Below, piece by piece: positions 26,330 to 61,502 of a stretch of DNA of 64,000 nt. A program made the translations under genes and the position numbers. Numbering within the stretch: the first letter of the stretch is position 1; each line of letters opens with the position of its first letter. This DNA is from Myrmaecium sp. VS I D KN 1 (lineage: Eukaryota > Ascomycota > Dothideomycetes > Valsariales > Valsariaceae): NCBI GenBank assembly GCA_019775845.1, contig JADQAV010000009.1, positions 1,364,001-1,428,000 on the forward strand, in the 5' to 3' direction. The notes beneath the pieces were generated by a model that saw only the letters and a program-made list of their open reading frames with translations, ran no database searches and was not told the origin of the DNA.

Positions 26330-27645
26330 ATGCCCAGGAGACTTCCACCGCATCTGCTCGTGCATTATCAACAGCAGCAGCAATTGCAACAGCAGCAGCA
26401 GCAGCAACAGCAACATCGACGAAACGTCTCCTCGGTTTCTTCGACGTCGTCCGCGCGGAGTTGTCATTCGGCTTCGTCTTCTTCGTCCTCCGCTTGCTCG
26501 TGTCCGTCTTGCGCTGCGTCTTCGGCGACGACTTCGCCTTCGTCGGTTTACTCGGCTTCTTCTTTTTCCTCTCCTCTCTCTTCTCCCTCCTCTTCTTCGT
26601 CCGCTTCGTCCATTGTCAAGGAGACCATTGGCGACGGTGTAGGGAAGATTCCTGGGTTCAGGACGAGTGCTGGTAAACTTCCTCTTCTCCTCTTCTCCAA
26701 TCCCCCCTTCCACATAACCAGTTCAAGTCTGGAAAAGAGGGGAGACATCCAATCGAGAAAGTCAAGAACCCCCGCTAACGTGCCCCCCTCCGGCGCTCAC
26801 AGCATTCCTCAGCTCCCTCTCCGCAAACCTGCGACTAGACGACGATTTCCTCCCCACGCCCACCGGCACGCCGAACTCGATGCGCGGCGTTTCCACCGTG
26901 ACCACCTCCACCACCACCCTCCTCCTAGACCCCAGCATCCGCGCCCCCTCCCCCCTCACCGTCTCTGACGCCTCGTCAACCACCATGACCACCCACAGCA
27001 ACCTCTCCAACAACCCAGCACCAGCCGCCCAAGAAGCCGAAGACGAAGAAGCCCTCCCCACCCTCCTCACCCACCCCGCCACGACCCCCACCACCCGCCT
27101 CCACGCCCTGCGCCTGCTCGCCGACGCCGCCGCCGAAGAGCGCGTCCTCGCCTCGCGCGCCCTCCTCTCCGCACCCCTCCACTGGGCCCTCCTCGCCGCC
27201 CTCCTCGCCCTCATCGTCCGCTGGCGCTACCGCGGCCCCGCCGACGCGCCCGTGCTGCTCACCACGCTCGCCGGCGTTGTGCTCGCGGCGCTGGTCGCGG
27301 TGCGCGGGGCGACGGCGGGCTGGCTGCGGGCGGCGGAGGAGCGGGTGGGGTGGGCGGTGTTGGATGGTGCGGATGCGGATGAGCAGCGGTGCTGCTGGGT
27401 GAGCGTGTGGCGCGGGGAGGTGGTTGGGGTGTGTGTTGTGGGGGTTGTGAACGGGGAGGGGTCCGAGGGCGGTGGGAGTCGGAAGAGGAAGGTGGAGCGC
27501 TGTGGGGTGCTGCGGGCGTGGGCGGTAAGGCGCAGGTACCGTGGTCGTGGCGTGGGAAGGGGGTTGTTGGAGGAGGCGCTGCGTTGGGTGGAGAGTCAGG
27601 GGGGACGGGGGCTGGAGGTGAGGTTTGAGGGGGATGGGATTTGTA

Positions 27646-27676
<31 letters not shown>

Positions 27677-27890
27677 CTCCCACTGCTTCCTTTTGCTTTT
27701 TTTTTTGGCATGTCGACCGGTGTGCAGTGGCTGACGCGACCCAGTTTCGAAACGGTTCCCCTATCAGATGTACAACGGCCCGTTTGACCGGCGGGACGCG
27801 CGGGTGCGTCGGGCGGTCGAGCGGGTGGTGGCGGAGGTGGGCGGGAAAGGGAGTGGGAGTGGGAGTGGAAGGAGGCGGAGTCATGGTTGA
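26330..27890 (+). CDS. GNAT-family N-acetyltransferase with membrane anchor and poly-Gln tract
   Basis: Three exons, 26330-26672, 26803-27642 and 27745-27890, give 442 residues. Exon 1 encodes a Gln tract broken by one Leu (residues 14-28) and a Ser-rich region. Exon 2 carries two hydrophobic segments at about 240-255 (LHWALLAALLALIVRW) and 265-281, then a GNAT fold. The acetyl-CoA loop is RRRYRGRGVGRGLLEEAL at about 357-374. Exon 3 begins FSKRFPYQMYNGPFDRRDAR, which completes the last GNAT strand. The acceptor at 27744 was chosen over an earlier CAG at 27727 because only it keeps this conserved ending in frame. The last intron contains 29 consecutive T. The substrate is unknown. Membrane-anchored fungal GNATs of this layout are common, and the hydrophobic hairpin suggests an organelle membrane. 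Confidence 0.85.
27648..27676 (+). repeat. Poly-T run of 29 in the last intron of the GNAT gene
   Basis: Uninterrupted T homopolymer starting five bases after the GT donor. It may be length-variable or a sequencing artefact in length; it does not affect the reading frame because it is intronic. Confidence 0.9.
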
Positions 27891-38192: not shown

Positions 38193-41100
38193 CTAGAAAT
38201 CGTCCAGCTTAGGCGGGACGACGAATCCCCTCATCCTCTTCGCGGGCCTGCCATTATCAGCGACATCGTTCAGGGGACGTTTCTTGAGAACATCCTGCTC
38301 CACATAGGACGAGGTGTCGCTGATGCTAGGCTGGCTCGGGGGTTTCGAGTACGGCGTGCTCCTGCCCGAGCTACCCACCGCGGACGACGGCGCGCTGTCA
38401 TCGACGACGAGAGGGAATGCCTGCTCACCAAGCAGGGCCTTATTCTCACGAGCCCGCGTGCTGGCGTTCGAGGCACGCTGGGCTTCCTTCCGGCGCTCGA
38501 TCTCCGCCTGTTGTCGCTCGAGCGCCGCTTCACGAGCGGCTTCCTCTTCGTCCTCCGCAGACTGATTCTTCAGGAACGCCTCGTACTCTTTCTGGTACAG
38601 CGCCTCCTGCGCTTCGAGGAAGCGTCGCGTCTCGTTATCCTCAGCCATGCCGTCGTTGCACGACGGGCAGACGATGTAGAAGGCCTGCGGCTGCTCGGGG
38701 AAGCCGAGCATCTCGTACTCGATCAGCTGGTCGCCGACCAAGGTGGTCTTGTCCCAGCGCAGACAATCCTCGCAGTATCCGCGCGGGCACCAGCGGCAGC
38801 GGAAGATGAGGCCGCCGGCGTCGGTCGTCTTCTTCTGGCAGTCGAAGCACTCGTGCTGCGGGCAGTAGAAGTTCCGCCAGCCCTGCACGTCCACGTCGAA
38901 GTCGTCCTTCAGACAGGCGCGGTGGTAGCTGCGCGGACAGCTCGAGCACAGGACGATCTGCCCGCCGTCGTAGCAGATGTGGCACGTCTCCTGGTTCTCG
39001 ATCTCCGGTTTCTTCTCGCGTTTCGGGCTGGCGAGGCGCGGGTCCTTGCCCGCGAAGGTGGGGACGGCTTCCCAGTCGCCGCAGTTCGTGCTTTCTTTGG
39101 TCACGGCGTAGCCATCCACCATCACGGTCGTGTTCTTGCCGACTCGTCGGTCCGCTCGAGTGACCCCGTCGCTCAGGACAGAATTTCCATTGTCCTCGCC
39201 GCGTTTGTAATGCTTTCCGTCGAAGACGGCTATCTCGACGCGTTCCATGGCTGAAAGCCAACTTTCTTCGTCGACCTCGGCGGCAGACGACTGCTCAACC
39301 TGAAGATCACTGGGCTTGTCGCGACACTTCTCCAGTACGGTGTTCAAGTCCCATGTCAGCATCTCGGTCACGTCAATCTCTTGGTGGGATAAGGTCTGGG
39401 CACCGCGGCGGATCAAGGTCTTCAGTTGATTGGTGCTCATCTGCGGCATGTCATCGTTCACGCTCGGCCTTCCGGTCTTCTTGGTACCAGTTCGCGAATG
39501 GACGCTGCTCATGCTCTCTGTGACCTTGGCAGAGAGATAGAGCTTCTTGCGGATGCGCCCCAACATCTGTTCCTCCACGGTCCCCTGAGTGCAGAGCTTG
39601 TAGATGGTACATGGCTTCGTCTGGCCAATCCGGTGGACTCGAGCTTCAGCCTGTAGGGTGATCTGCGGGTTCCAGTCTTCATCCATGAAGATCACATCGC
39701 TAGACGAAGTCAAGTTGATGCCGAGACCACCGGCTCTCGTAGAGATAAGCATCACTTTGTATTGGGAAGAGTGCTCGTTGAAGACACGAATGCCCAAGTT
39801 ACGGCGAGCTCGAACCGTACTGCCATCCAAGCGAAGATATCTGAACTTCTCACCTCCACCGCCGAGAAGATATAGGAGATCCTCGCAGTAATCCAAAGTT
39901 TTGGTGAATCCAGAAAAGATAAGGACCTTCTTTCCTTTATTCAGAATCAAATCTTCGAGTAATTTCTTGAGGACGATGAACTTTCCAGAGGCCTGGATGA
40001 TGTGATCGCCAAGGTAGTAGGGGTCAGGCGAGGCGTTGGCAAGGAGGTAAGGATGGCTGCAGCACTTGCGCAATTGCATCAGGAGGTTCATCAGACGTCG
40101 CCATGCGTTCTGAGCCGTAGAGTCGTGCTTCTCATGCTCCAACGCCTGTTGCATAATCTCGCGACTTTCCTGCCACTTGTCCGATGCAACACCGTGCTTC
40201 TGCTCAACGTCTTCAAGCTTCAGCCACTTCTCATCCTCAATTTCTGCTTTAATCGCTACCCTCTCTTTATTAGAAGCATCCTTGAACAGTTCTTGGAGGA
40301 GGCTATCGCCGGCTCGAGTAAGCAAACGAGTGTACCAGAACCTTTGCATCGGTGTAAGCGGCACGTAGAGGAAGACCTCCTCCTTTGGTGGGAGACCGAG
40401 ATCCACGCCGGGACTATCTTTCATACGCCGCAGCATGACAAGCTCTAGCAGTCGACGGGCATCGTCGATAACGGAGGTGCTGACTTTGCCGCGAGTCAGG
40501 TCAAAAGATTCGCGGAATAAAGCCTGGGTGTTGGCAGTGAAAACGTCTGGATAGAGCCAGTGTAGCAGACCCCACATCTCTTGGAGATTGTTTTGGAGGG
40601 GAGTGCCGGTAAGAATGAGGCGGTATTCGGCTTTCAGTCCTTGCAAGGCAGCGGAAACTTGTGTCAGGTCATTTTTGATCCGATGACCTTCGTCAAGCAC
40701 AATATAACGCCAAACGAAGGAAGTCTTGAAGAAAGACTTTTCCGCAGCGAAAGTCTCGTACGTTGTGATGACGATGTTGAATCCTTGGGCCTGCAAGCCT
40801 TGACCAGCGTTGGCCGTCTGACGACCCCTCTTCTTGAACCTCACCGTTGCGTTGCCGTACCTATCCTCCAGTCCAAGCGCAACTCTCTTCAGATGAGCGC
40901 GAGCACTGACAGGTCCATGAAATCGCAAAACTTTGAGATCCGGCGTCCAGCGCTCAGCTTCAGCGACCCAGGAGCTGATAACACTCAGCGGACATACAAC
41001 CAGGTATGGGCGAATTTCCTCTGTAGGTAGGTTTTTCGCTGCTTCCTGCTCTTCGATATACTGAAATAAGGCCAAGGTCTGTAGCGTCTTCCCGAGGCCC

Positions 41101-41888
41101 ATTTCGTCACCCAATAAACCAGACATTCCATTCTCGTACAGATGTACAAGGAAAGAAAGGCCTTCGAGCTGGTATGGCTTGAGTGTTGCCCGGATACCTT
41201 GAGGCTGAGATTTCAAGGATCTATACTCGATGATCTCGCCCGTCGAGCGCTCCGCAAGCCTCGAGATGTAATTGTTCTCAGGCAACAAGGGCAAGAAATA
41301 ATCCTTCTTAGCCACAAAGTAGTTGTTAGCCTTAACCTTGGTGCTGGCAGCGATGTCGGAGCGAATGCGATTGCGGACGGACTGTTGCTTGAGCTTGGCT
41401 GAGATTGCAGTTTGCGGCTCATTTGACGGCAAAGCATCCGACCTGAGTATGATTTTAGATGCCCTCCCACTACGACGTTCTGATCGAGTACTGCAGGAAG
41501 ATTGGTTCGCGAGATCCTCAGTATTTGGTTTCGGTGCTACCCTGGCTGAGCGTCGGGAGGATGTGCAACGCTCGAGCGCTTTTGGTGTCTTGTCGGATTC
41601 GGGCTCCATGATGTCTTCCGCAGGGTGCGAGGTTTTTGGCGTACCTGAGTCTGAAGGACTGTCTTGGCCTAGTGACGGAGGCGACGGAGATACACTGGGT
41701 GTCGCCAGGGAAACAACAGGACTGGAGGCCGACATGGACTGTCGAAGCGAGCCTGTACGCTCCCTCGTTACGGACGAGAGAGATCTCCGTGCCTGGAATG
41801 ATTGCAGCAAGTCCTCCACGGTAGGTCGGCGACGCTTCGAAGGGGTCACAGGGAGCGGTGAACCCACTCTTATGATTGGACGCTCCAT
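38193..41888 (-). CDS. SNF2-family chromatin remodelling ATPase with C-terminal PHD-type zinc finger
   Basis: An intronless gene of 1231 residues. A GTG lies two codons upstream in frame; the ATG at 41888 is taken as start. Residues 1-185 are Ser/Arg-rich and disordered. The SNF2 N-lobe has DEMGLGKT (Lys about 267) and DEGHRIKN (about 399-406), followed by LTGTPLQNN. The C-lobe includes KVLIFSGFTKTLDY, RLDGSTV, LISTRAGGLGINLT and RVHRIGQTKP. After about residue 965 come paired Cys-rich zinc modules: CHICYDGGQIVLCSSCPRSY (PHD), then a second set CFDCQKK, CRWCPRGYCEDC and CPSC. The C terminus is a charged coiled coil. The PHD lies after the helicase, unlike CHD/Mi-2 enzymes. It starts 772 bp from the divergent clr2 gene. 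The exact SNF2 subfamily is not determined. Confidence 0.92.
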   Translation of the reverse strand: MERPIIRVGSPLPVTPSKRRRPTVEDLLQSFQARRSLSSVTRERTGSLRQSMSASSPVVSLATPSVSPSPPSLGQDSPSDSGTPKTSHPAEDIMEPESDKTPKALERCTSSRRSARVAPKPNTEDLANQSSCSTRSERRSGRASKIILRSDALPSNEPQTAISAKLKQQSVRNRIRSDIAASTKVKANNYFVAKKDYFLPLLPENNYISRLAERSTGEIIEYRSLKSQPQGIRATLKPYQLEGLSFLVHLYENGMSGLLGDEMGLGKTLQTLALFQYIEEQEAAKNLPTEEIRPYLVVCPLSVISSWVAEAERWTPDLKVLRFHGPVSARAHLKRVALGLEDRYGNATVRFKKRGRQTANAGQGLQAQGFNIVITTYETFAAEKSFFKTSFVWRYIVLDEGHRIKNDLTQVSAALQGLKAEYRLILTGTPLQNNLQEMWGLLHWLYPDVFTANTQALFRESFDLTRGKVSTSVIDDARRLLELVMLRRMKDSPGVDLGLPPKEEVFLYVPLTPMQRFWYTRLLTRAGDSLLQELFKDASNKERVAIKAEIEDEKWLKLEDVEQKHGVASDKWQESREIMQQALEHEKHDSTAQNAWRRLMNLLMQLRKCCSHPYLLANASPDPYYLGDHIIQASGKFIVLKKLLEDLILNKGKKVLIFSGFTKTLDYCEDLLYLLGGGGEKFRYLRLDGSTVRARRNLGIRVFNEHSSQYKVMLISTRAGGLGINLTSSSDVIFMDEDWNPQITLQAEARVHRIGQTKPCTIYKLCTQGTVEEQMLGRIRKKLYLSAKVTESMSSVHSRTGTKKTGRPSVNDDMPQMSTNQLKTLIRRGAQTLSHQEIDVTEMLTWDLNTVLEKCRDKPSDLQVEQSSAAEVDEESWLSAMERVEIAVFDGKHYKRGEDNGNSVLSDGVTRADRRVGKNTTVMVDGYAVTKESTNCGDWEAVPTFAGKDPRLASPKREKKPEIENQETCHICYDGGQIVLCSSCPRSYHRACLKDDFDVDVQGWRNFYCPQHECFDCQKKTTDAGGLIFRCRWCPRGYCEDCLRWDKTTLVGDQLIEYEMLGFPEQPQAFYIVCPSCNDGMAEDNETRRFLEAQEALYQKEYEAFLKNQSAEDEEEAAREAALERQQAEIERRKEAQRASNASTRARENKALLGEQAFPLVVDDSAPSSAVGSSGRSTPYSKPPSQPSISDTSSYVEQDVLKKRPLNDVADNGRPAKRMRGFVVPPKLDDF

Positions 41889-42278
41889 GTTCACCGTATG
41901 AGATGACGGTCCAAGGTAACGGCGAAGAGCAGACTACGAACAAGCAGGTGACAGAATGTAAGGCTGAGTGAAGGGATATGGAATAGATAGGAGAAGATCA
42001 ACGTGAGACATCGCAATCGGCATGTGAAGATCTTGAGATGACTTTGAAGAGTAGAAGAGGCAAGAAAGATAGTTCCCCTGAAACTATGGGAAAAACACCC
42101 TCTGCAAGCAGAATCACGAGTACAATCGTGGAGAGAAAAGCCTTGGAAAAATCGCGTAGGGGTGGCAATGACCAAGGCACCTTCTGAAGCCCCAAGCCAA
42201 AACCTTTTGCCTGAACGAAACCAAGAGGAAAAGTAAACAGAAATTTCGTGGATCTAGACTGGCATCTCAAAACCAANN

Positions 42279-42660: not shown

Positions 42661-44768
42661 ATGACGCGATTTTACCCGCTATACATCCGCCGCTCGGATG
42701 GCAAGCGTGAAGTCGCGACGAGAAAGGGCAAGGAGAAAAACGAACCCTCCCCGGAGCAGCTCGACCGCACGCCAAACGCCAAAGGCGTATGCGACTATTA
42801 CCGCGAGATCGGCTACGATGAGGTCAAGCACCTTGACTGGAGGAGGAAGTTGGCTGGCATGTTGGTGCGGGAGATAGGTGGCAAAGAGTATGAAGGTAAA
42901 CCACTGCTTTCACGGTCGCGGATAAGAAAGAACGCCTACTGACAAGGCGCAATGTAGACCGCGCAAATGTCTGCATCCTGCAGGATATTCCGGAGAATTA
43001 TCGCCTATATGAACACATCAAATCCCGGGTCATGGACAGCGAAGGCAAGCCCGTGAAGTCCACCAAGAACCATGCGGGAGGAGGTCACGATCGCCAGGAC
43101 GCATATCTATACGGACATCCGATGGGACCTAAGAAACGATACAGAAGTCCGGCCGACTTCTTCCCTCACTTGCTTTGGCTAGCCACAGACGAAACAGGCA
43201 ACCCAGACAATTGCGCGTGCAAAATCTGCTGTCCGGAAGAGTTGGACGACAAAGCAACCACCAAAGCTGAGGCGAAGCCTACTGTTGCAATAAAGAAGGA
43301 GGAGTCGCAAACAAAGTCGCCGACGCCAAACGCAACACCATCCGTAATCCAGCGACAACCCCCAGCTGCTCAACCGCCCGTCCAGTCCGCGCCGAAGCCC
43401 CAAGCGCCCAAACCACTGGCTCCCACGCCACTCCCGCAACCTCGGTCCGTCGATCAGCAGATTGACGCACAATACAATAAGTTCCTCTACCGTCCGGGGG
43501 AGGTGGTGTGGTTTCAGCTGAACACGGGGGCTTGGGGCCTGGCGGTCGTGACGCGACGATATGTGCAGCACGACGTTCGCTCATATGTGGTGCAGCCCTT
43601 GTCGCACCCGCTTGAATACGAACAGCCAGTGACCATAACCGACAGCAGAGCCCTCCGGCCATGGCTTGCGTGGAGCGCCCCTTCTTACACATTCAAGTAT
43701 CTACGCGATCGTCAGATGTCCTACGACTCGGTCGACTGGCATGGCCTGTTGCTCGGAAGGTATCCAAACCCCCCTACCGATGCCGAAGGGCAGCCGTTAG
43801 GCCCTGGGGATGTCAAGGTAGATGCCAGTATTCTGGCAGCCAAGACCATCGATTCCACGTACACGACAATCGACTTCCTGAAGCAGATCGACGCCGGGAA
43901 CGGAAACATCGAGCGCCGCTGGAACGGGATATTCCTCGGCGGCGAGAAAGTGTGGGTTGGCGAAGTCGTCCGTCTCCGGACGAACGAACTCATCGTCGTC
44001 ACCGAGATCATTGAGAATATCTCCCCAGACAACCCTCGCGAACCCACCATCAAACTTGGTGGTGACATCTACACGACCGTCGCCATCGACCCCAGTCACC
44101 GCCAGCCACTCCCGGACGACCTACACATCCCCATCCGCATGCGCGAGGATCTTCGATGGCGCAACAACATCGCCCTGCGCTACAACCGAGCCCAGACCTA
44201 CTACAAGCTCAAAGAAGTCTCCAAACGCGTCAACATCGCCGAGGTCAAGGGCCGGTGGTGGGAGGCCAGCATCCTGTTTCCCATCATCTGCTCCACCGAG
44301 GAGCTCAACGAGAGCATCAAGAAGGGCGGCCTGACCGACACCACCTTCTCCCTCAACGGCCGCCACGACTGCAACCCCCACTTCCCCCGCAACGCCGGCA
44401 TCCGCAAGCAGGAGCGTCGCGACGCCTTCGGCAACTCCATCCCCCCCTCCACCCGCTTCGTGCCCGGCATCGACCCGCCCCGGCCGGAGGAGTCGGCTCC
44501 CCAGGCTCAGGCCCCGCGAACGCTTCCCGTCCAAGCGCCATCGTATCAGGGCGGCCATGCGCAACAGCAGCAGTCGCAACAACAACAATCGCAAACGCAG
44601 CAGCAGGGGCAGCAGACACAGCAGCAGCAGACGGGCTCGTTACTGCATGACCCGGCGCACGGCGCGCTGGAGGAGTTTATGAACTTGGATGGTATGGATC
44701 ACGATGCGATGCCGGGCTTTGGGCAGTCGTTTGCGGGGCCCGGTGGGGATGGGCATTATCAGTTTTGA
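42661..44768 (+). CDS. clr2: Clr2-type transcription-silencing protein (cryptic loci regulator 2)
   Basis: Two exons, 42661-42895 and 42958-44768, join through a 62-nt intron to give 681 residues. Across the join the frame reads REIGGKEYEDRANVCILQDI. The N-terminal block with LDRTPNAKGVCDYYREIGYD and the block DFFPHLLWLATDETGNPD, then CACKICCPEEL, are the fungal Clr2 N-terminal signature. Later parts are a beta-rich region with FLYRPGEVVWFQLNTGAWGL (about 175-195) and a C-terminal Gln-rich tail near 625-650. In fission yeast Clr2 belongs to SHREC, which combines a histone deacetylase and the SNF2 enzyme Mit1 for heterochromatic silencing. In this window it is divergently paired with a SNF2-PHD ATPase, which makes a functional link plausible but unproven. 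Confidence 0.9.
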
Positions 44769-52714: not shown

Positions 52715-53641
52715 ATGGCGGACGAAGGAGGCCTGGTGAGTCCACACTACTGCGTGAAGTGGTTCCTTCAAGCCTCCTGGAGAAAATCCCACTCACGATA
52801 GGAATTGCAGAAGAACAACAACCTGGCACGCGTTCGAGAAAACCAGCGACGCAGTCGCGCCCGTCGGAAAGAATACCTGCAGGACCTGGAGTGCAAGTTT
52901 CGGAACTGTGAACTACAGGGGGTGGAGGCTTCCGCCGAGATTCAGGCCGCGGCCCGCCGAGTCCTGGAGGAAAACAAGAAGCTACGAGCGCTGCTCCGGG
53001 AACGTGGAATGTTGGACGCTGAAATAGACGCGTGTGCGAGCCCCGGCGGAGACCAGACCTCACCTGCCAGCCCGGCAGCGCGTGTGCTGGAGGACATGCT
53101 GTCATCCAGAAAGCCCTGTACCGGCGAGAGACCAAGTGAGCTAGGTCAATGGAATGGGCAACCTCGACTGAGCAGCACACCCTCCGTATCGGTCTGTACT
53201 CCTCGGTCTTCGTCTGCGCCAATCGCACCTCGTCCCCCTCAGCTAGGCGTGGGTACTACTGAACAAGTACAAAGGGCTACCGCGTCGGTAAGCTCACAGA
53301 CACTTGCCATCCCCAGCATGCCTACCGCGGTTCCAGCCTATACGGAGCTGCCTATAAGCCCTGCGCAAACCGTTCCGAACCTTTCTCCCCACTTCGACGA
53401 ATATCACTACTTGATGCCACAATCAGACATATGGATCCGACCGCAGGAGGCGAACTACTCAACACCTGACACCGGATATACTGAGAGCAACTCTTCCTCT
53501 TGCATCTACGCAGCGCATATAGTGAGAAGCATGCGATCGGACGTTGGACCCGAATTAGAAGCCGAACTCGGGTGCCAACTGGTGGGCACTGATTGCGCGG
53601 TAGATAACATGACCGTTCTCGACGTTATCGACAGATATTAA
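52715..53641 (+). CDS. bZIP transcription factor
   Basis: Exon 1 is 52715-52735 (21 nt, MADEGGL) and exon 2 is 52802-53641, giving 286 residues. The basic region NLARVRENQRRSRARRKEYL lies right at the N terminus, followed by a short leucine-zipper-like helix (LQDLECKFRNCELQ, then AARRVLEENKKLRALL). The rest is Ser/Pro-rich and without known domains, ending VLDVIDRY. This arrangement, with the basic domain starting within 20 residues of the N terminus, is common among Pezizomycotina bZIP factors of unknown target. A second in-frame AG at 52809-52810 would remove three residues (ELQ), so the exact acceptor is ambiguous. The gene lies next to the orphan protease-like ORF on the same strand; no link is proposed. 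Confidence 0.85.
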
Positions 53642-54411: not shown

Positions 54412-57400
54412 ATGACGGAGCAAAGACAAGCCAATGAGAAGAAACGAGCTGCTGCGTCTGATCCTAGGCAAGGTGGGAGCAGCAAGAGACAGAGGAACCA
54501 GTCCGGTCCTACTTCTGAACCGCGACGAAGTCCAGGAGCCAGCGTAAGAGGAAACAGCATTTCCCAGCGCTTCGAAGATATACATCAAAATGTCCCGCCT
54601 GAGAGCATCCCCGCATTGGAGCCGTGTGACGTCCCCTCCCCGTTGATATATCAGCCTTACAGGGTAACTAAAGATAGAGGGGGAAAAGACCTTTGGGAAC
54701 CGACTTCCTCCCTCAAAGGCTATCAGAAATGGGCTGTTGCCGGACCCAACATCAAACCGGCAATCATGAGCATGAAGCCACGCATGCTTGATATCCACAT
54801 GGAATTAAATGCCCTTCAGCCCGACGAGGCACTGGTAGCATTCCCAGGAGAGGCAACTCGGCCGGCTCCACCGAAGAACCCCAGGACTCGACCTATCTGG
54901 TCTGAGAAGATCGGTGGAGAAAACGGTGGTCGAGTATTTAGTGTGACCGCGGAAGACGGGAGTTATCACGAGTCCAGCAGCACAGAAATCGCTCTCCGGA
55001 ATCAACCTGCGGAAGGATCTGGCGAAGTCATATGGTTGATTGAGGTCAGGATAGGCGCCCCAGAAGCCGTTCTTGTCAATGGACAGCGACTCCCCGAACC
55101 AGCGGCCGGGAGCAAGCGGGCCATCGGCTCTCTGAAAGGTTTCAACATCATCCACCTGCATGGGATCCCAATCTTCTTCTGGCAATCCGCAGGCGACATG
55201 CATCATTCGCCGAGCTCCCCAGGCGATCAGCAATACGGTATCCAGCATGCGCTCCCGTGGAACGATTTCCACATTTTTACGTCCTGGCTTGATCCCAACC
55301 AGAGCATTGCCAGGCAGTCGAGGACCCCGACCAGGCGTTCCACCGGGTCTCAGCCAGCTAGTGGAGGCGCAAGGGGCAGCGCAGCTGGGGCCCCGTCGCC
55401 GGCATCGAGGCGCTCGGGAAGGTCTTCTGGTGGTAGCGAGACTCGGTTGTCGGCAGTGAAGCCGGCTTGGGCTCCCTCGGGAACGGCCCCGGCTTCATGG
55501 CAGAGCTACCTGCACATAGTGACTCGCGAGAAGTGCAGCGCCATTGGGTACGGGACGATTCTACGCGGGATTGCCTGTGTGACCGAGGCTCTGGGCCCGG
55601 AGTTCGGGCTTGTTGATGAGCAGGGGTATCGTTTTGCGGTTCTCGAAAAGGAAGACGAAGGGGGCGAAGAGGAGGAGGAGGAAGAGGAAGAGAATGAGGA
55701 GGCGGAGGAAGATGGCGAGGATGGGGGAAACGAGGAGAGCGAGGGGGCGCTGTCGCGATCCAGTAATGAAGATGGAAAGGCTGAAGAGGGAGAGAATGAA
55801 GAAGGAAGTGAAGAACAGACAGGAGAACTGGAAGAGCAAGAGCATGAGGGGCATGGAGAACAAGAGGAGCAAGAGGATGATCAGGAGGAAGAAGGAGAGG
55901 AAGAGGATCAGGAAGAAGAAGGAGAGGAAGAGGGGGAAGAAAGTGGAAACGATGAAGATCGCTTTAAGCATACTGTGACACGACCGCAGCACCCCCTTCT
56001 ACTTCCTTATTATCCCCAGAGAGATACCGCTAAACCTCCATGCCTTTTGCATGTTATTGCAGAAGATGCCTTCCGATTATACGATCTGTCCGGCGTATGC
56101 ACCGAGGACGATCTTAGCGTTGCAAAGCAGGATGTGCCTCAGATACTTTCGAGGATGTTCTGGTGCGGGAGCGAAAGTTTGAACGGAGATCTGGTTTCCC
56201 TCAAAGTTTCTGGCGGTGAAGATTTCGCCAGCCTTCGTGCCATTGTAGTCGCCTGGAGTCTCGCCTTGGGTCTTGAGCCTATTCGCACGGTGATACCCCC
56301 GAGCACTTATTTCGAGGCTCATGAGGTGCTCGGCCAGGCTCTGGCAGGAGGAATGCCTCTGGATGCTGTACTTTCATTCTTGCTCTGCAGGAAGTTCTCC
56401 CGCAGAAGCAAGAGTTCCGAAAAGCGCAGCTTCCCAGGAGATACGATACGGCTGACCAGGCCGACGGAGCTCCGCAATCAATACATCGAAGCCTTTTTGA
56501 GCGCCTTTCCTTCAGAGCTTGCCCAAGGCCGAGGAGATGCCGTTTTATATTGCGGCATATTCAAACCAAAGCTGACGGCTATCATCGAGGATTTGCGTAC
56601 CAAGCAAGCGGAACCCATTTTCGAGACCAGAGTGAGGTTGGAAGATGATGAGCTGGTCTGGGCGTTGGTGTCTGTCACCGAGGCTCTGAAAGAAAAGGAT
56701 AAACGCAACCGTTTCAGCTTCGCTGCAGGATATCATATCACGTCAGCTAGAAATGCATACGGCATGAGCGATGAGATGACGCAGGAGGTTCTGCCACAAG
56801 ATTATATACCCATCGCACGGCCACGAGCAACCTGGCTGATGCCTTTCGTTTGGAACGAAGACCAGGTGGAGGCAGAACAATCCGGAGGCAATCTTACGGA
56901 AACGATAGACAACGGCCACACTATCCTTGTCGTTCTGGAGCATGGCGCTGGAAACAGAATTCACATGAAGTGGTTGGACAGCGCTCCCGGGGTATTGGAG
57001 GAAGAGCCCGCCCTCACGGAAGCGATCCGGCAGATCATATGCGCGATCATCAATCTCAGATGGCTCCGTCCCGGCGAGACCGTCAAATTCAGCATAGACG
57101 GACCGGAGCACGTTGCGACCGCTCGCCAGGTCAGCAACTGGGAATGCGGCTTTCACACCGTGCTGAACGGTTGGTGCGAGGCGCTCGAGCTGGAGGTCAA
57201 CCCGGAGTTCTCCTTCGGCGCCTTCGACGACGACTATCGACCCGAGATGACCGACCTGGTCACGGCTGCGGTGCATGGCAGGCTCGACTGGGCGACGCTG
57301 GTGGCGTATCTTACCGCCATCGAGTTCGTCAAGGAGGGCCAGACGGTGCCGCCGCACCTGCAGTTCGAGCGCACCGTGTTGGTCACCTGCGCGACGATGT

Positions 57401-57510
57401 TGGATGAGATGATCGAGTCGCTGAGTGACTTCCAATTCAACCGAGAGATTGGCCTCGTGACCCCGTCCCGGCAGTCTGATCCTATCAGGAGGAGTAGGAA
57501 GCATACTTGA
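54412..57510 (+). CDS. Large orphan protein with repeated Ulp1-like (C48) modules, last one with intact catalytic residues
   Basis: An intronless ORF of 1032 residues starting at ATG 54412. The C-terminal part (about 735-1000) reads as a Ulp1/SENP-like cysteine protease. It has a WLNDE-like entry DDELVWALVSV near 745, His836 in NGHTILVVLEH, Asp856 in KWLDSAP, and Gln906 and Cys912 in ARQVSNWECGFH. The spacing Q-x5-C-G is the same as in Ulp1 (QTNGYDCG-type). Two earlier stretches resemble its C-terminal half: 374-400 (CSAIGYGTILRGIACVTEAL) and 540-660 (AIVVAWSLALGLEP, then GMPLDAVLSFLL). The middle one has lost the Cys. A Glu-rich tract (about 412-516) separates the first two. The N terminus is basic and disordered. 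The substrate is unknown: deSUMOylation, another isopeptidase activity, or no activity are all possible. The repeat reading is by eye. Confidence 0.7.
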   Translation: MTEQRQANEKKRAAASDPRQGGSSKRQRNQSGPTSEPRRSPGASVRGNSISQRFEDIHQNVPPESIPALEPCDVPSPLIYQPYRVTKDRGGKDLWEPTSSLKGYQKWAVAGPNIKPAIMSMKPRMLDIHMELNALQPDEALVAFPGEATRPAPPKNPRTRPIWSEKIGGENGGRVFSVTAEDGSYHESSSTEIALRNQPAEGSGEVIWLIEVRIGAPEAVLVNGQRLPEPAAGSKRAIGSLKGFNIIHLHGIPIFFWQSAGDMHHSPSSPGDQQYGIQHALPWNDFHIFTSWLDPNQSIARQSRTPTRRSTGSQPASGGARGSAAGAPSPASRRSGRSSGGSETRLSAVKPAWAPSGTAPASWQSYLHIVTREKCSAIGYGTILRGIACVTEALGPEFGLVDEQGYRFAVLEKEDEGGEEEEEEEEENEEAEEDGEDGGNEESEGALSRSSNEDGKAEEGENEEGSEEQTGELEEQEHEGHGEQEEQEDDQEEEGEEEDQEEEGEEEGEESGNDEDRFKHTVTRPQHPLLLPYYPQRDTAKPPCLLHVIAEDAFRLYDLSGVCTEDDLSVAKQDVPQILSRMFWCGSESLNGDLVSLKVSGGEDFASLRAIVVAWSLALGLEPIRTVIPPSTYFEAHEVLGQALAGGMPLDAVLSFLLCRKFSRRSKSSEKRSFPGDTIRLTRPTELRNQYIEAFLSAFPSELAQGRGDAVLYCGIFKPKLTAIIEDLRTKQAEPIFETRVRLEDDELVWALVSVTEALKEKDKRNRFSFAAGYHITSARNAYGMSDEMTQEVLPQDYIPIARPRATWLMPFVWNEDQVEAEQSGGNLTETIDNGHTILVVLEHGAGNRIHMKWLDSAPGVLEEEPALTEAIRQIICAIINLRWLRPGETVKFSIDGPEHVATARQVSNWECGFHTVLNGWCEALELEVNPEFSFGAFDDDYRPEMTDLVTAAVHGRLDWATLVAYLTAIEFVKEGQTVPPHLQFERTVLVTCATMLDEMIESLSDFQFNREIGLVTPSRQSDPIRRSRKHT

Positions 57511-58824: not shown

Positions 58825-58911
58825 ACATACGGTCACAGGAGGCTGAGAACACGGAACCCCGTCCGCTCTTCCAAAGTTAAGCAGCCTANNGAATCCCTGC
58901 TGCTGTATGTT
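58825..58911 (+). rRNA. 5S rRNA gene, internal part missing at a 2-N gap
   Basis: The left part (58825-58888) starts ACATACGGTCAC and contains CCCCGTCCGCTC and AAGTTAAGC, matching the first half of fungal 5S rRNA. The right part (58891-58911) reads GAATCCCTGCTGCTGTATGT, the conserved 3' end. ACATAC at 58825-58830 pairs with GTATGT at 58905-58910 as helix I. A run of T follows, the usual RNA polymerase III terminator. Only about 85 nt are present against about 118 expected, so roughly 30 nt, including the internal control region downstream of box A, are missing at the NN. This most likely reflects assembly. Confidence 0.85.
58889..58890. other. Assembly ambiguity (NN) inside the 5S rRNA gene
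   Basis: Two N at the point where about 30 nt of 5S sequence are absent. The stated distance across it is therefore probably too short. Confidence 0.9.
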
Positions 58912-60500: not shown

Positions 60501-61502
60501 TTACTTCCTCCCCTTCTTCTTCTTCTTCTTTTTCTTCTTCTTCGCCTCTCCGCTTCCTTCTCCCGCTTCACCCTCTCCATCAACCGCCGACGCCAGCGCC
60601 GACACCACCGGCATCTTCGGTCTCCCAAACGTCTTGAGATGCTCACGATCAAAGCCCTCCTTATCCTTCCGAAACAGGGCCATGGTGACCCGAGCATCCT
60701 CCACACTAGAATGGGCGGCGGTCTGAAACTCCACGCCGAGGACCTCCTTAGCCAGCTTCTTCAGGCTGGGCGTCTTGCCCATGCTCAGCTTGCGGAAGGC
60801 CGGGTGGCGCGCGGTGTCGCGGACATCCCGCTTCGGATGGCTGAGCAGAAGCACGCCGAGATCGTGCTTGAGCGCGTGACCGACGAGGATGCGGCCCTGC
60901 AGGAGATCAGCGACGGCGCGCTGGACCTCGCGGAAAGGGCGGGCGCTGGAGGGGTGCAGGTGGTGCGGCTTGATGCCGGAGACGTGGGTGCGGTAGTCGG
61001 TCACGGGCAGGACGGGCTGGACGTAGCTGTCGTACAGCTGGTGGCCGTGGTAGTTCACCACCGACACCCGCGCCAGCTGCGAGTCCTGGTCCGGGTCCGG
61101 GCCGATGCCGACCATCTCGCAGTCGAGCGCGATGTACTTGCCCGGCGCGGCGGTCGGGGAGAGGCCTTGGTTGGGGACGTCCGGGTGGGCGGGCGAGGGC
61201 GCGAGGATGGAGGCGGGGTTGGAGTCGTCCGTCGGAATGGTCGAGGGGATCACGGTCGGAGGCCTGGTTGTAGGCGGCTCTGTGGTCTTGCCATTCTCCA
61301 TCCTGCGGTGTTTGCTGGCTATTCCGCCCTTCTCCCCCGTCGTGGTCCGTTGTCTCTTGAACTCCGTCCGCGGCGGATGGGCATCGGAACTCTTGCGCTT
61401 CAGCGGGCCTGACGTCGCCGCGCCTTTCGCCGGTTTCGGTTGGTCCTTCTGAAGCCTCTGCTGGAGCTTTTTCCAATTGCTGGACAGCTCTTTCAACTCC
61501 AT
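60501..61502 (-). CDS. rex4: RNA exonuclease 4 (Rex4, DEDDh family)
   Basis: A single exon of 333 residues from ATG 61502 (the open frame extends upstream only from a GTG). Residues 1-120 are basic and disordered. The exonuclease domain has all DEDDh residues: Asp127 and Glu129 in ALDCEMVGIG, Asp214 in GHALKHDLGVLL, and His264 and Asp269 in AAHSSVEDAR. The C terminus ends in ten lysines and GRK, a strong nucleolar-type basic tail. In yeast Rex4 is a 3'-5' exonuclease involved in pre-rRNA processing (ITS1). The gene is divergent from esa1, with 293 bp between the start codons. Confidence 0.95.
   Translation of the reverse strand: MELKELSSNWKKLQQRLQKDQPKPAKGAATSGPLKRKSSDAHPPRTEFKRQRTTTGEKGGIASKHRRMENGKTTEPPTTRPPTVIPSTIPTDDSNPASILAPSPAHPDVPNQGLSPTAAPGKYIALDCEMVGIGPDPDQDSQLARVSVVNYHGHQLYDSYVQPVLPVTDYRTHVSGIKPHHLHPSSARPFREVQRAVADLLQGRILVGHALKHDLGVLLLSHPKRDVRDTARHPAFRKLSMGKTPSLKKLAKEVLGVEFQTAAHSSVEDARVTMALFRKDKEGFDREHLKTFGRPKMPVVSALASAVDGEGEAGEGSGEAKKKKKKKKKKGRK

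Follow-up and report, generated by a model that had tools for sequence, protein, structure and literature searches.

What kind of protein is encoded by the long open reading frame at positions 54412-57510 on the plus strand of a 64,000-nucleotide stretch of Myrmaecium sp. VS I D KN 1 DNA (contig JADQAV010000009.1, positions 1,364,001 to 1,428,000; the whole stretch is called the window here), and how many protease-like domains does it contain? A preliminary description of this locus had proposed a 1032-residue protein built of three tandem modules resembling the Ulp1/SENP peptidases (family C48), of which only the last would keep a full set of catalytic residues. The frame is indeed open without interruption for 1032 codons, and its length speaks for a real gene. 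On the domains our answer is a narrower one: the C-terminal region, module 3 (residues 735-1000), is probably a very divergent C48-like (Ulp1/SENP-type) protease, module 2 (residues 527-668) could be a pseudoprotease copy, but one whose sequence similarity is marginal and whose register is in conflict, and a third, N-terminal C48 copy (module 1, residues 150-410) is unsupported by the sequence comparisons.

Likeness of module 3 to Ulp1

The residues on which a protease reading depends, His836, Asp856, Gln906, Cys912 and Gly913, are present in that order, and the spacing Q-x5-C-G, which occurs only once in the whole 1032-aa protein, is exact, all as previously described. The order of His, Asp, Gln and Cys, the Q-x5-C-G and the hydrophobic-D-S sequence are like those of Ulp1/SENP (C48, PF02902). 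How often would such an arrangement be found in any sequence? A loose-spacing H-D-Q-CG pattern, which was designed after the site was seen, occurs in 31/5000 shuffles of residues 735-1032, in 173/5000 shuffles of the whole protein and, of the window's 259 stop-to-stop frames that reach 100 aa, in the present gene only. When it is loosened further (D/N, Q/N and C without G) the corresponding shuffle counts rise to 1396/5000 and 3107/5000. By itself the H-D-Q-CG motif decides nothing. A stricter pattern was built round the query, fails on Ulp1 itself and was given no weight.

Comparison with yeast Ulp1 points to the same site. In an unguided Smith-Waterman alignment with module 3, the best match was the Gln/Cys loop of both proteins (HLDCPQQPNGYDCGIYVCMN / HVATARQVSNWECGFHTVLN), with a BLOSUM62 score that was reached by 37/2000 shuffles of residues 800-930 and by 137/2000 of residues 735-1000. 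The same loop was selected by hhalign with an alignment of Ulp1 and SENP1 (30 columns, E 0.16), which, with Ulp1 in that alignment, is no independent result. Ulp1 and module 3 were also scored block by block in five core elements whose boundaries the analyst had set; 19/5000 shuffles reached this score, which came mostly from the Cys helix.

Structure prediction, which had been proposed as a check, gave models of low confidence for modules 2 and 3, with a mean predicted local distance difference test score (pLDDT) of 42 and 44, respectively, and these were taken for element order only. The main elements of the single-sequence AlphaFold model of residues 729-1012 are a helix at 745-762, a strand at 807-814, a strand at 836-843 that starts at His836, a strand at 848-854 just before Asp856, a helix at 866-882, strands at 890-895 and 899-903, a helix at 914-924 right after Cys912 and helices at 940-954, 960-974 and 981-1005; a short strand (768-770) and short helices (787-793, 828-834, 861-864 and 904-908) lie among them. 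The order of elements in C48 is known from the Ulp1 structure, and the main element order of this model is compatible with it. As in Ulp1/SENP, the His is predicted at the start of a strand and the Cys just before a helix.

The two upstream regions

Does module 2 hold the remains of the same domain? It is without the His and Cys and keeps an Asp (Asp558, in LYDLSG), just as had been described; the Gln has no counterpart either. By sequence count Asp558 lies 48 residues from Ala606, the equivalent of the Cys, compared with 49 in Ulp1 and 56 in module 3. The short segments that had been quoted as counterparts of one another fared unevenly. Those at 379-398 and 913-933 are correct; the one given as 609-624 exists but was misplaced, since 609-624 reads RAIVVAWSLALGLEPI and the quoted core, AIVVAWSLALGLEP, occupies 610-623; and the G-x3-LD-x3-L motif that was said to recur has no match in the protein, with G-x3-LD-x2-L at 646 and G-x-LD-x3-L at 956.

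The single-sequence model of module 2 covers residues 517-728 and reaches a pLDDT of at least 50 for about 528-579 only (block means are 61-78 over 527-576). Its strands at 529-533, 544-549 and 555-558, the last of which ends at Asp558, are followed by a helix at 565-584 and, downstream, by helices at 604-618, 630-645, 650-666, 685-697 and 720-727. The three strands, the helix and three of the later helices can be matched in order with the main elements that were predicted for module 3, the two models being separate single-sequence predictions, provided that helices 828-834, 861-864 and 904-908 and strands 890-895 and 899-903 of module 3 are ignored. Between the helix after the Asp and the helix after the Cys position the module 2 model has no strands, and a complete C48 core would need them. 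Foldseek found no C48 structure among the best 50 of 99 matches to this model.

The case for a first copy had been made from module 1, and it comes down to one preselected stretch of about 40 residues (about 368-407), downstream of a Ser/Gly/Arg-rich stretch, which is similar to the Cys helix in module 3 (4/2000 shuffles when preselected). Over the whole region, 150-410, the comparison with module 3 is not significant (160/1000 and 185/2000 shuffles), and the claim of a first copy is unsupported. Compared with module 2, the whole segment gave a score that was reached or exceeded by 737/1000 shuffles and the stretch 368-407 one that was reached by 1610/2000; against Ulp1, the counts for module 1 were 241/2000 and 1007/2000. 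No Asp/His framework was seen in module 1 by inspection, and residues 150-295 compared with PDB sequences gave 0.18 at best.

Weighing the readings

A series of observations weighs against a C48 identity for module 3. With BLOSUM45 the Ulp1 match was reached by 157/2000 shuffles of residues 800-930 and by 468/2000 of residues 735-1000, and 12 of 157 windows of frames from Escherichia coli equal the score of module 3 with Ulp1. The loose H-D-Q-CG pattern is also present in 3/114 six-frame open reading frames that reach 120 aa in a 100-kb portion of E. coli K-12 DNA, a control in which not all frames are true genes. A two-sequence hidden Markov model (HMM) of Ulp1 and SENP1 scored -1.6 bits on module 3, with 308/2000 shuffles as high (1079 reported). 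Pfam, including PF02902, was searched with the entire protein as well as trimmed pieces (HMMER filters on), and NCBIfam with the entire protein as well as module 3; at E up to 10 neither gave a family. PDB sequences gave only chance-level matches to the whole protein, the best (0.078) in its acidic stretch; a single match of modules 2 and 3 to PHROGs (0.041, to module 2, of unknown function) was judged to be chance. No homologue was found in viral contigs with the whole protein or module 3 as query. Module 3 found none in prokaryote genomes either, and in plasmids and phages it gave none by tblastn (E up to 1). The model of module 3 is of low confidence (predicted template modelling score 0.40) and has several extra short helices, one of which (904-908) lies over Gln906. 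Among the best 50 of 334 Foldseek matches to it there was no C48 chain, and none had E <=0.001; a model as poor as this would lack such matches in any case. Finally, Trp after the catalytic His (HW) and WLND near the N-terminal helix form the diglycine clamp, and both are seen in Ulp1 and SENP1; in module 3 it is Thr that follows His836 (GHTILVV), and WLND is absent (DELVWALVS). Because these clamp residues differ from those of Ulp1/SENP1, the substrate may not be SUMO. We make no claim to formal membership of C48: neither a match to the family profile nor the clamp was found when they were looked for. Should module 3, then, be regarded as no peptidase at all, but as a domain of another kind in which H-D-Q-C-G came together by chance? 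The E. coli control frames and the negative HMM and Foldseek results would fit that, but we consider it unlikely, as the exact Q-x5-CG, the LDS and the placement of strand and helix coincide, and unguided alignments select the same site. The active C-terminal domain of the preliminary description keeps the support of residue order, Q-x5-CG, Ulp1 alignment, block test and predicted elements, while the profiles are silent.

On whether that domain has a relative upstream the evidence is divided. There is about an even chance, in our estimate, that the protein has only one C48-like domain. The middle would then be either a helical or alpha/beta region unrelated to it or kin to the C-terminal helices of the catalytic domain, and the copies would be a chance likeness of hydrophobic helices. 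MAFFT, in two-row and three-row alignments that were not used for modelling, did not reproduce the register of the preliminary description and set the middle region against the C-terminal extension of module 3; the best local alignment of modules 2 and 3 pairs DLV..FASL with DLV..WATL, likewise in another register (trimmed, BLOSUM62; 6/2000 shuffles); and when residues 525-735 were compared with 735-1032 (11/1000 shuffles at or above the observed score) the paired stretches again differed from those first proposed. The collinear pairing of blocks ranks 20th of 144 block permutations, Ulp1 scores against module 2 are at background (3386/5000 shuffles for blocks, 1421/2000 and 1269/2000 for local alignment), and the module 2 model is without the strands that module 3 has between its Asp and Cys helices. 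Against a single domain stand the match of main predicted elements from separate predictions and a spacing from Asp558 close to that of Ulp1. Those elements and the retained Asp558, together with a within-block score reached by 171/5000 shuffles and a PAM250 alignment in the register first proposed, though reached by 94/2000 shuffles, argue for a protease-pseudoprotease tandem, in which an active C-terminal C48 domain would follow one inactive, substrate-binding or regulatory copy. We hold such a tandem to be possible but doubtful: the methods disagree on register, 161 of the 212 residues in the module 2 model have a pLDDT under 50, and the elements match only when five of those predicted for module 3, three short helices and two strands, are ignored. 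For the degenerate middle copy as first described, predicted elements and Asp558 spacing stand on one side and marginal, register-conflicting sequence tests on the other. Quite improbable, to our mind, is a wider version, namely a fungal family whose active isopeptidase domain is SENP-like, has a changed diglycine clamp and acts on a ubiquitin-like modifier other than SUMO, and is preceded by one (perhaps two) dead copies of itself that bind substrate or regulate the enzyme. As for the N-terminal part, residues about 170-262 might not be a C48 copy but an FHA-like domain that has degenerated. By eye, LVNGQRLP followed by a hydrophobic hairpin suggests the FHA motif, but alignment with Rad53 FHA1, the single FHA domain compared, was at background (798/2000 and 451/2000 shuffles) and there is no Pfam match; we consider this very unlikely and rejected it.

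Our preferred reading, which we think likely to be right, is that of a cysteine isopeptidase of the Ulp1 kind (C48, clan CE), active in the nucleus or the cytosol, with its catalytic domain at the C-terminus (about 735-1000). What the analysis shows is the frame, the residues with their order and spacing, and predicted elements of low confidence; for its fold, catalysis, substrate and cell location, and for the role of the middle module, we infer the following. With His836, itself paired with Asp856, as its activator, Cys912 would attack the glycine bond at the C-terminus of a ubiquitin-like modifier, and Gln906 would stabilise the oxyanion. The long N-terminal part with its acidic linker (414-503) may serve in tethering or targeting, and residues 527-668 could form a C48-like half-domain, itself inactive, that packs against the active domain or gates it.

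Fungal databases contain many poorly characterised proteins with a ubiquitin-like-protease domain, with a Cys helix of the DCG-x-H/F-x2-LN-x-W type, and the gene may simply be one of those. By its working likeness it is likely a divergent member of a known protease kind. It differs from Ulp1/SENP in having no family-level sequence match, HT in place of HW and no WLND, in the predicted extra C-terminal helices and in the long N-terminal part with an acidic linker; the hairpin from His to Asp is also longer than in Ulp1 (20 versus 17 residues, by sequence count).

Published accounts describe further systems with which the gene can be compared. Aspergillus niger has three C48 enzymes, with the cysteine motif QXXXXXC (PMC7804941). 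On accessory chromosome AC23 of Parastagonospora nodorum there are Ulp1-type genes, SNOG_16274 and SNOG_16214 (PMC8146201), and in Fusarium zanthoxyli ULP1 is among the most enriched domains of 59 unique genes, with three such genes (PMC11110190); the present gene would be like these, by description and not by sequence, as a case of fungal Ulp1-type domains outside the core set. Some oomycete Crypton transposons carry C48 peptidases (PMC3212892), which is a mobile context, whereas 10 window frames scanned with Pfam gave no recombinase or transposase match. Among the papers listed, at the level of titles and abstract openings, we found no description of a tandem Ulp1/pseudo-Ulp1 protein in fungi. 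In the viral contigs a degenerate DNA pattern for C-G-x-H-x2-L-N-x-W-x2-A-L matched one locus, whose 131-aa frame was by eye a chance match and was set aside.

If our reading is true, this is a C48-like enzyme divergent enough to escape the family profiles, and a gene of a kind reported as accessory or species-unique in fungal genomes (PMC8146201, PMC11110190). A dead copy beside a live one, if true, would offer a natural system for isopeptidase regulation; should the middle module have no such kinship, the gene would be an ordinary divergent protease.

The gene and its surroundings

Table 1. Features of the gene, in window coordinates, with the basis for each
Feature	Position	Strand	Basis
Open reading frame, 1032 aa	54412..57510	+	intron unnecessary; codon bias, GC content at third codon positions (GC3)
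Residues 379-398, short likeness to module 3 post-Cys helix, no domain shown	55546..55605	+	4/2000 shuffles when preselected
Acidic linker, residues 414-503	55651..55920	+	58% Asp+Glu; minisatellite-like DNA
Module 2, residues 527-668, possible degenerate C48-like half-domain	55990..56415	+	predicted elements; weak, register-conflicting sequence support
Asp558 of LYDLSG, proposed counterpart of Asp856	56083..56085	+	position; predicted strand end
Module 3, residues 735-1000, probable C48-like protease domain	56614..57411	+	motif, Ulp1 alignments, low-confidence model, codon score
His836, candidate catalytic histidine	56917..56919	+	motif; first residue of predicted strand
Asp856 (WLDS), candidate catalytic aspartate	56977..56979	+	motif; two residues past predicted strand
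Gln906, candidate oxyanion-hole glutamine	57127..57129	+	motif, Ulp1 alignment; short helix 904-908 in model
Cys912, candidate nucleophile	57145..57147	+	motif, Ulp1 alignment; predicted helix begins two residues later

Codon bias was scored with six conserved frames of the window as the training set. The frame of the gene scores 0.145, compared with -0.094 and -0.209 for the remaining plus-strand frames and 0.072, -0.101 and -0.188 for the reverse frames. Module 3 has the strongest signal (0.28 over residues 729-1012); the score is near zero in residues 1-400 (-0.003) and 0.056 in module 2, where one reverse frame exceeds it with 0.131; a REX4-like neighbour scores 0.34, but it belongs to the training set. 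GC3 is 0.60 in the gene compared with 0.82 in two conserved neighbours. Codon bias as weak as this would suit a gene that is young or evolves fast. The acidic stretch, 90 residues long, is coded by purine-rich minisatellite-like DNA at 55651-55941 (TRF periods 15, 21 and 27).

The surroundings are eukaryotic and fungal in look. Seven of the 10 frames scanned matched Pfam, with domains of dynein heavy chain, tubulin chaperone D, an SNF2 helicase with PHD, Clr2, an FAD-synthase-like protein, an RNase_T exonuclease and a MYST acetyltransferase. The SNF2 helicase with its PHD finger (38193-41894, minus strand) and Clr2 (43032-44768, plus strand) are divergent, with about 1.1 kb between them; in fission yeast, Clr2 and an SNF2-type protein are both in a silencing complex. 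Upstream of the gene, a frame at 52805-53641 (plus strand) begins with NNLARVRENQRRSRARRKEYLQDLE, which is basic-leucine-zipper-like, and has no Pfam match at E 0.001; because it opens with TTG, a 5' exon may be missing. Downstream, 87 bases at 58825-58911 (plus strand) match the Rfam 5S rRNA model with 45.2 bits (gathering threshold 38) and span all of its 120 positions, and are probably a dispersed 5S copy that is degenerate and internally shortened. The REX4-like frame ends in a homopolymer-coded poly-Lys run at 60501-60560 (minus strand), and overlapping frames at 26880-27884 contain long poly-Phe and poly-Lys runs that are likewise coded by homopolymers.

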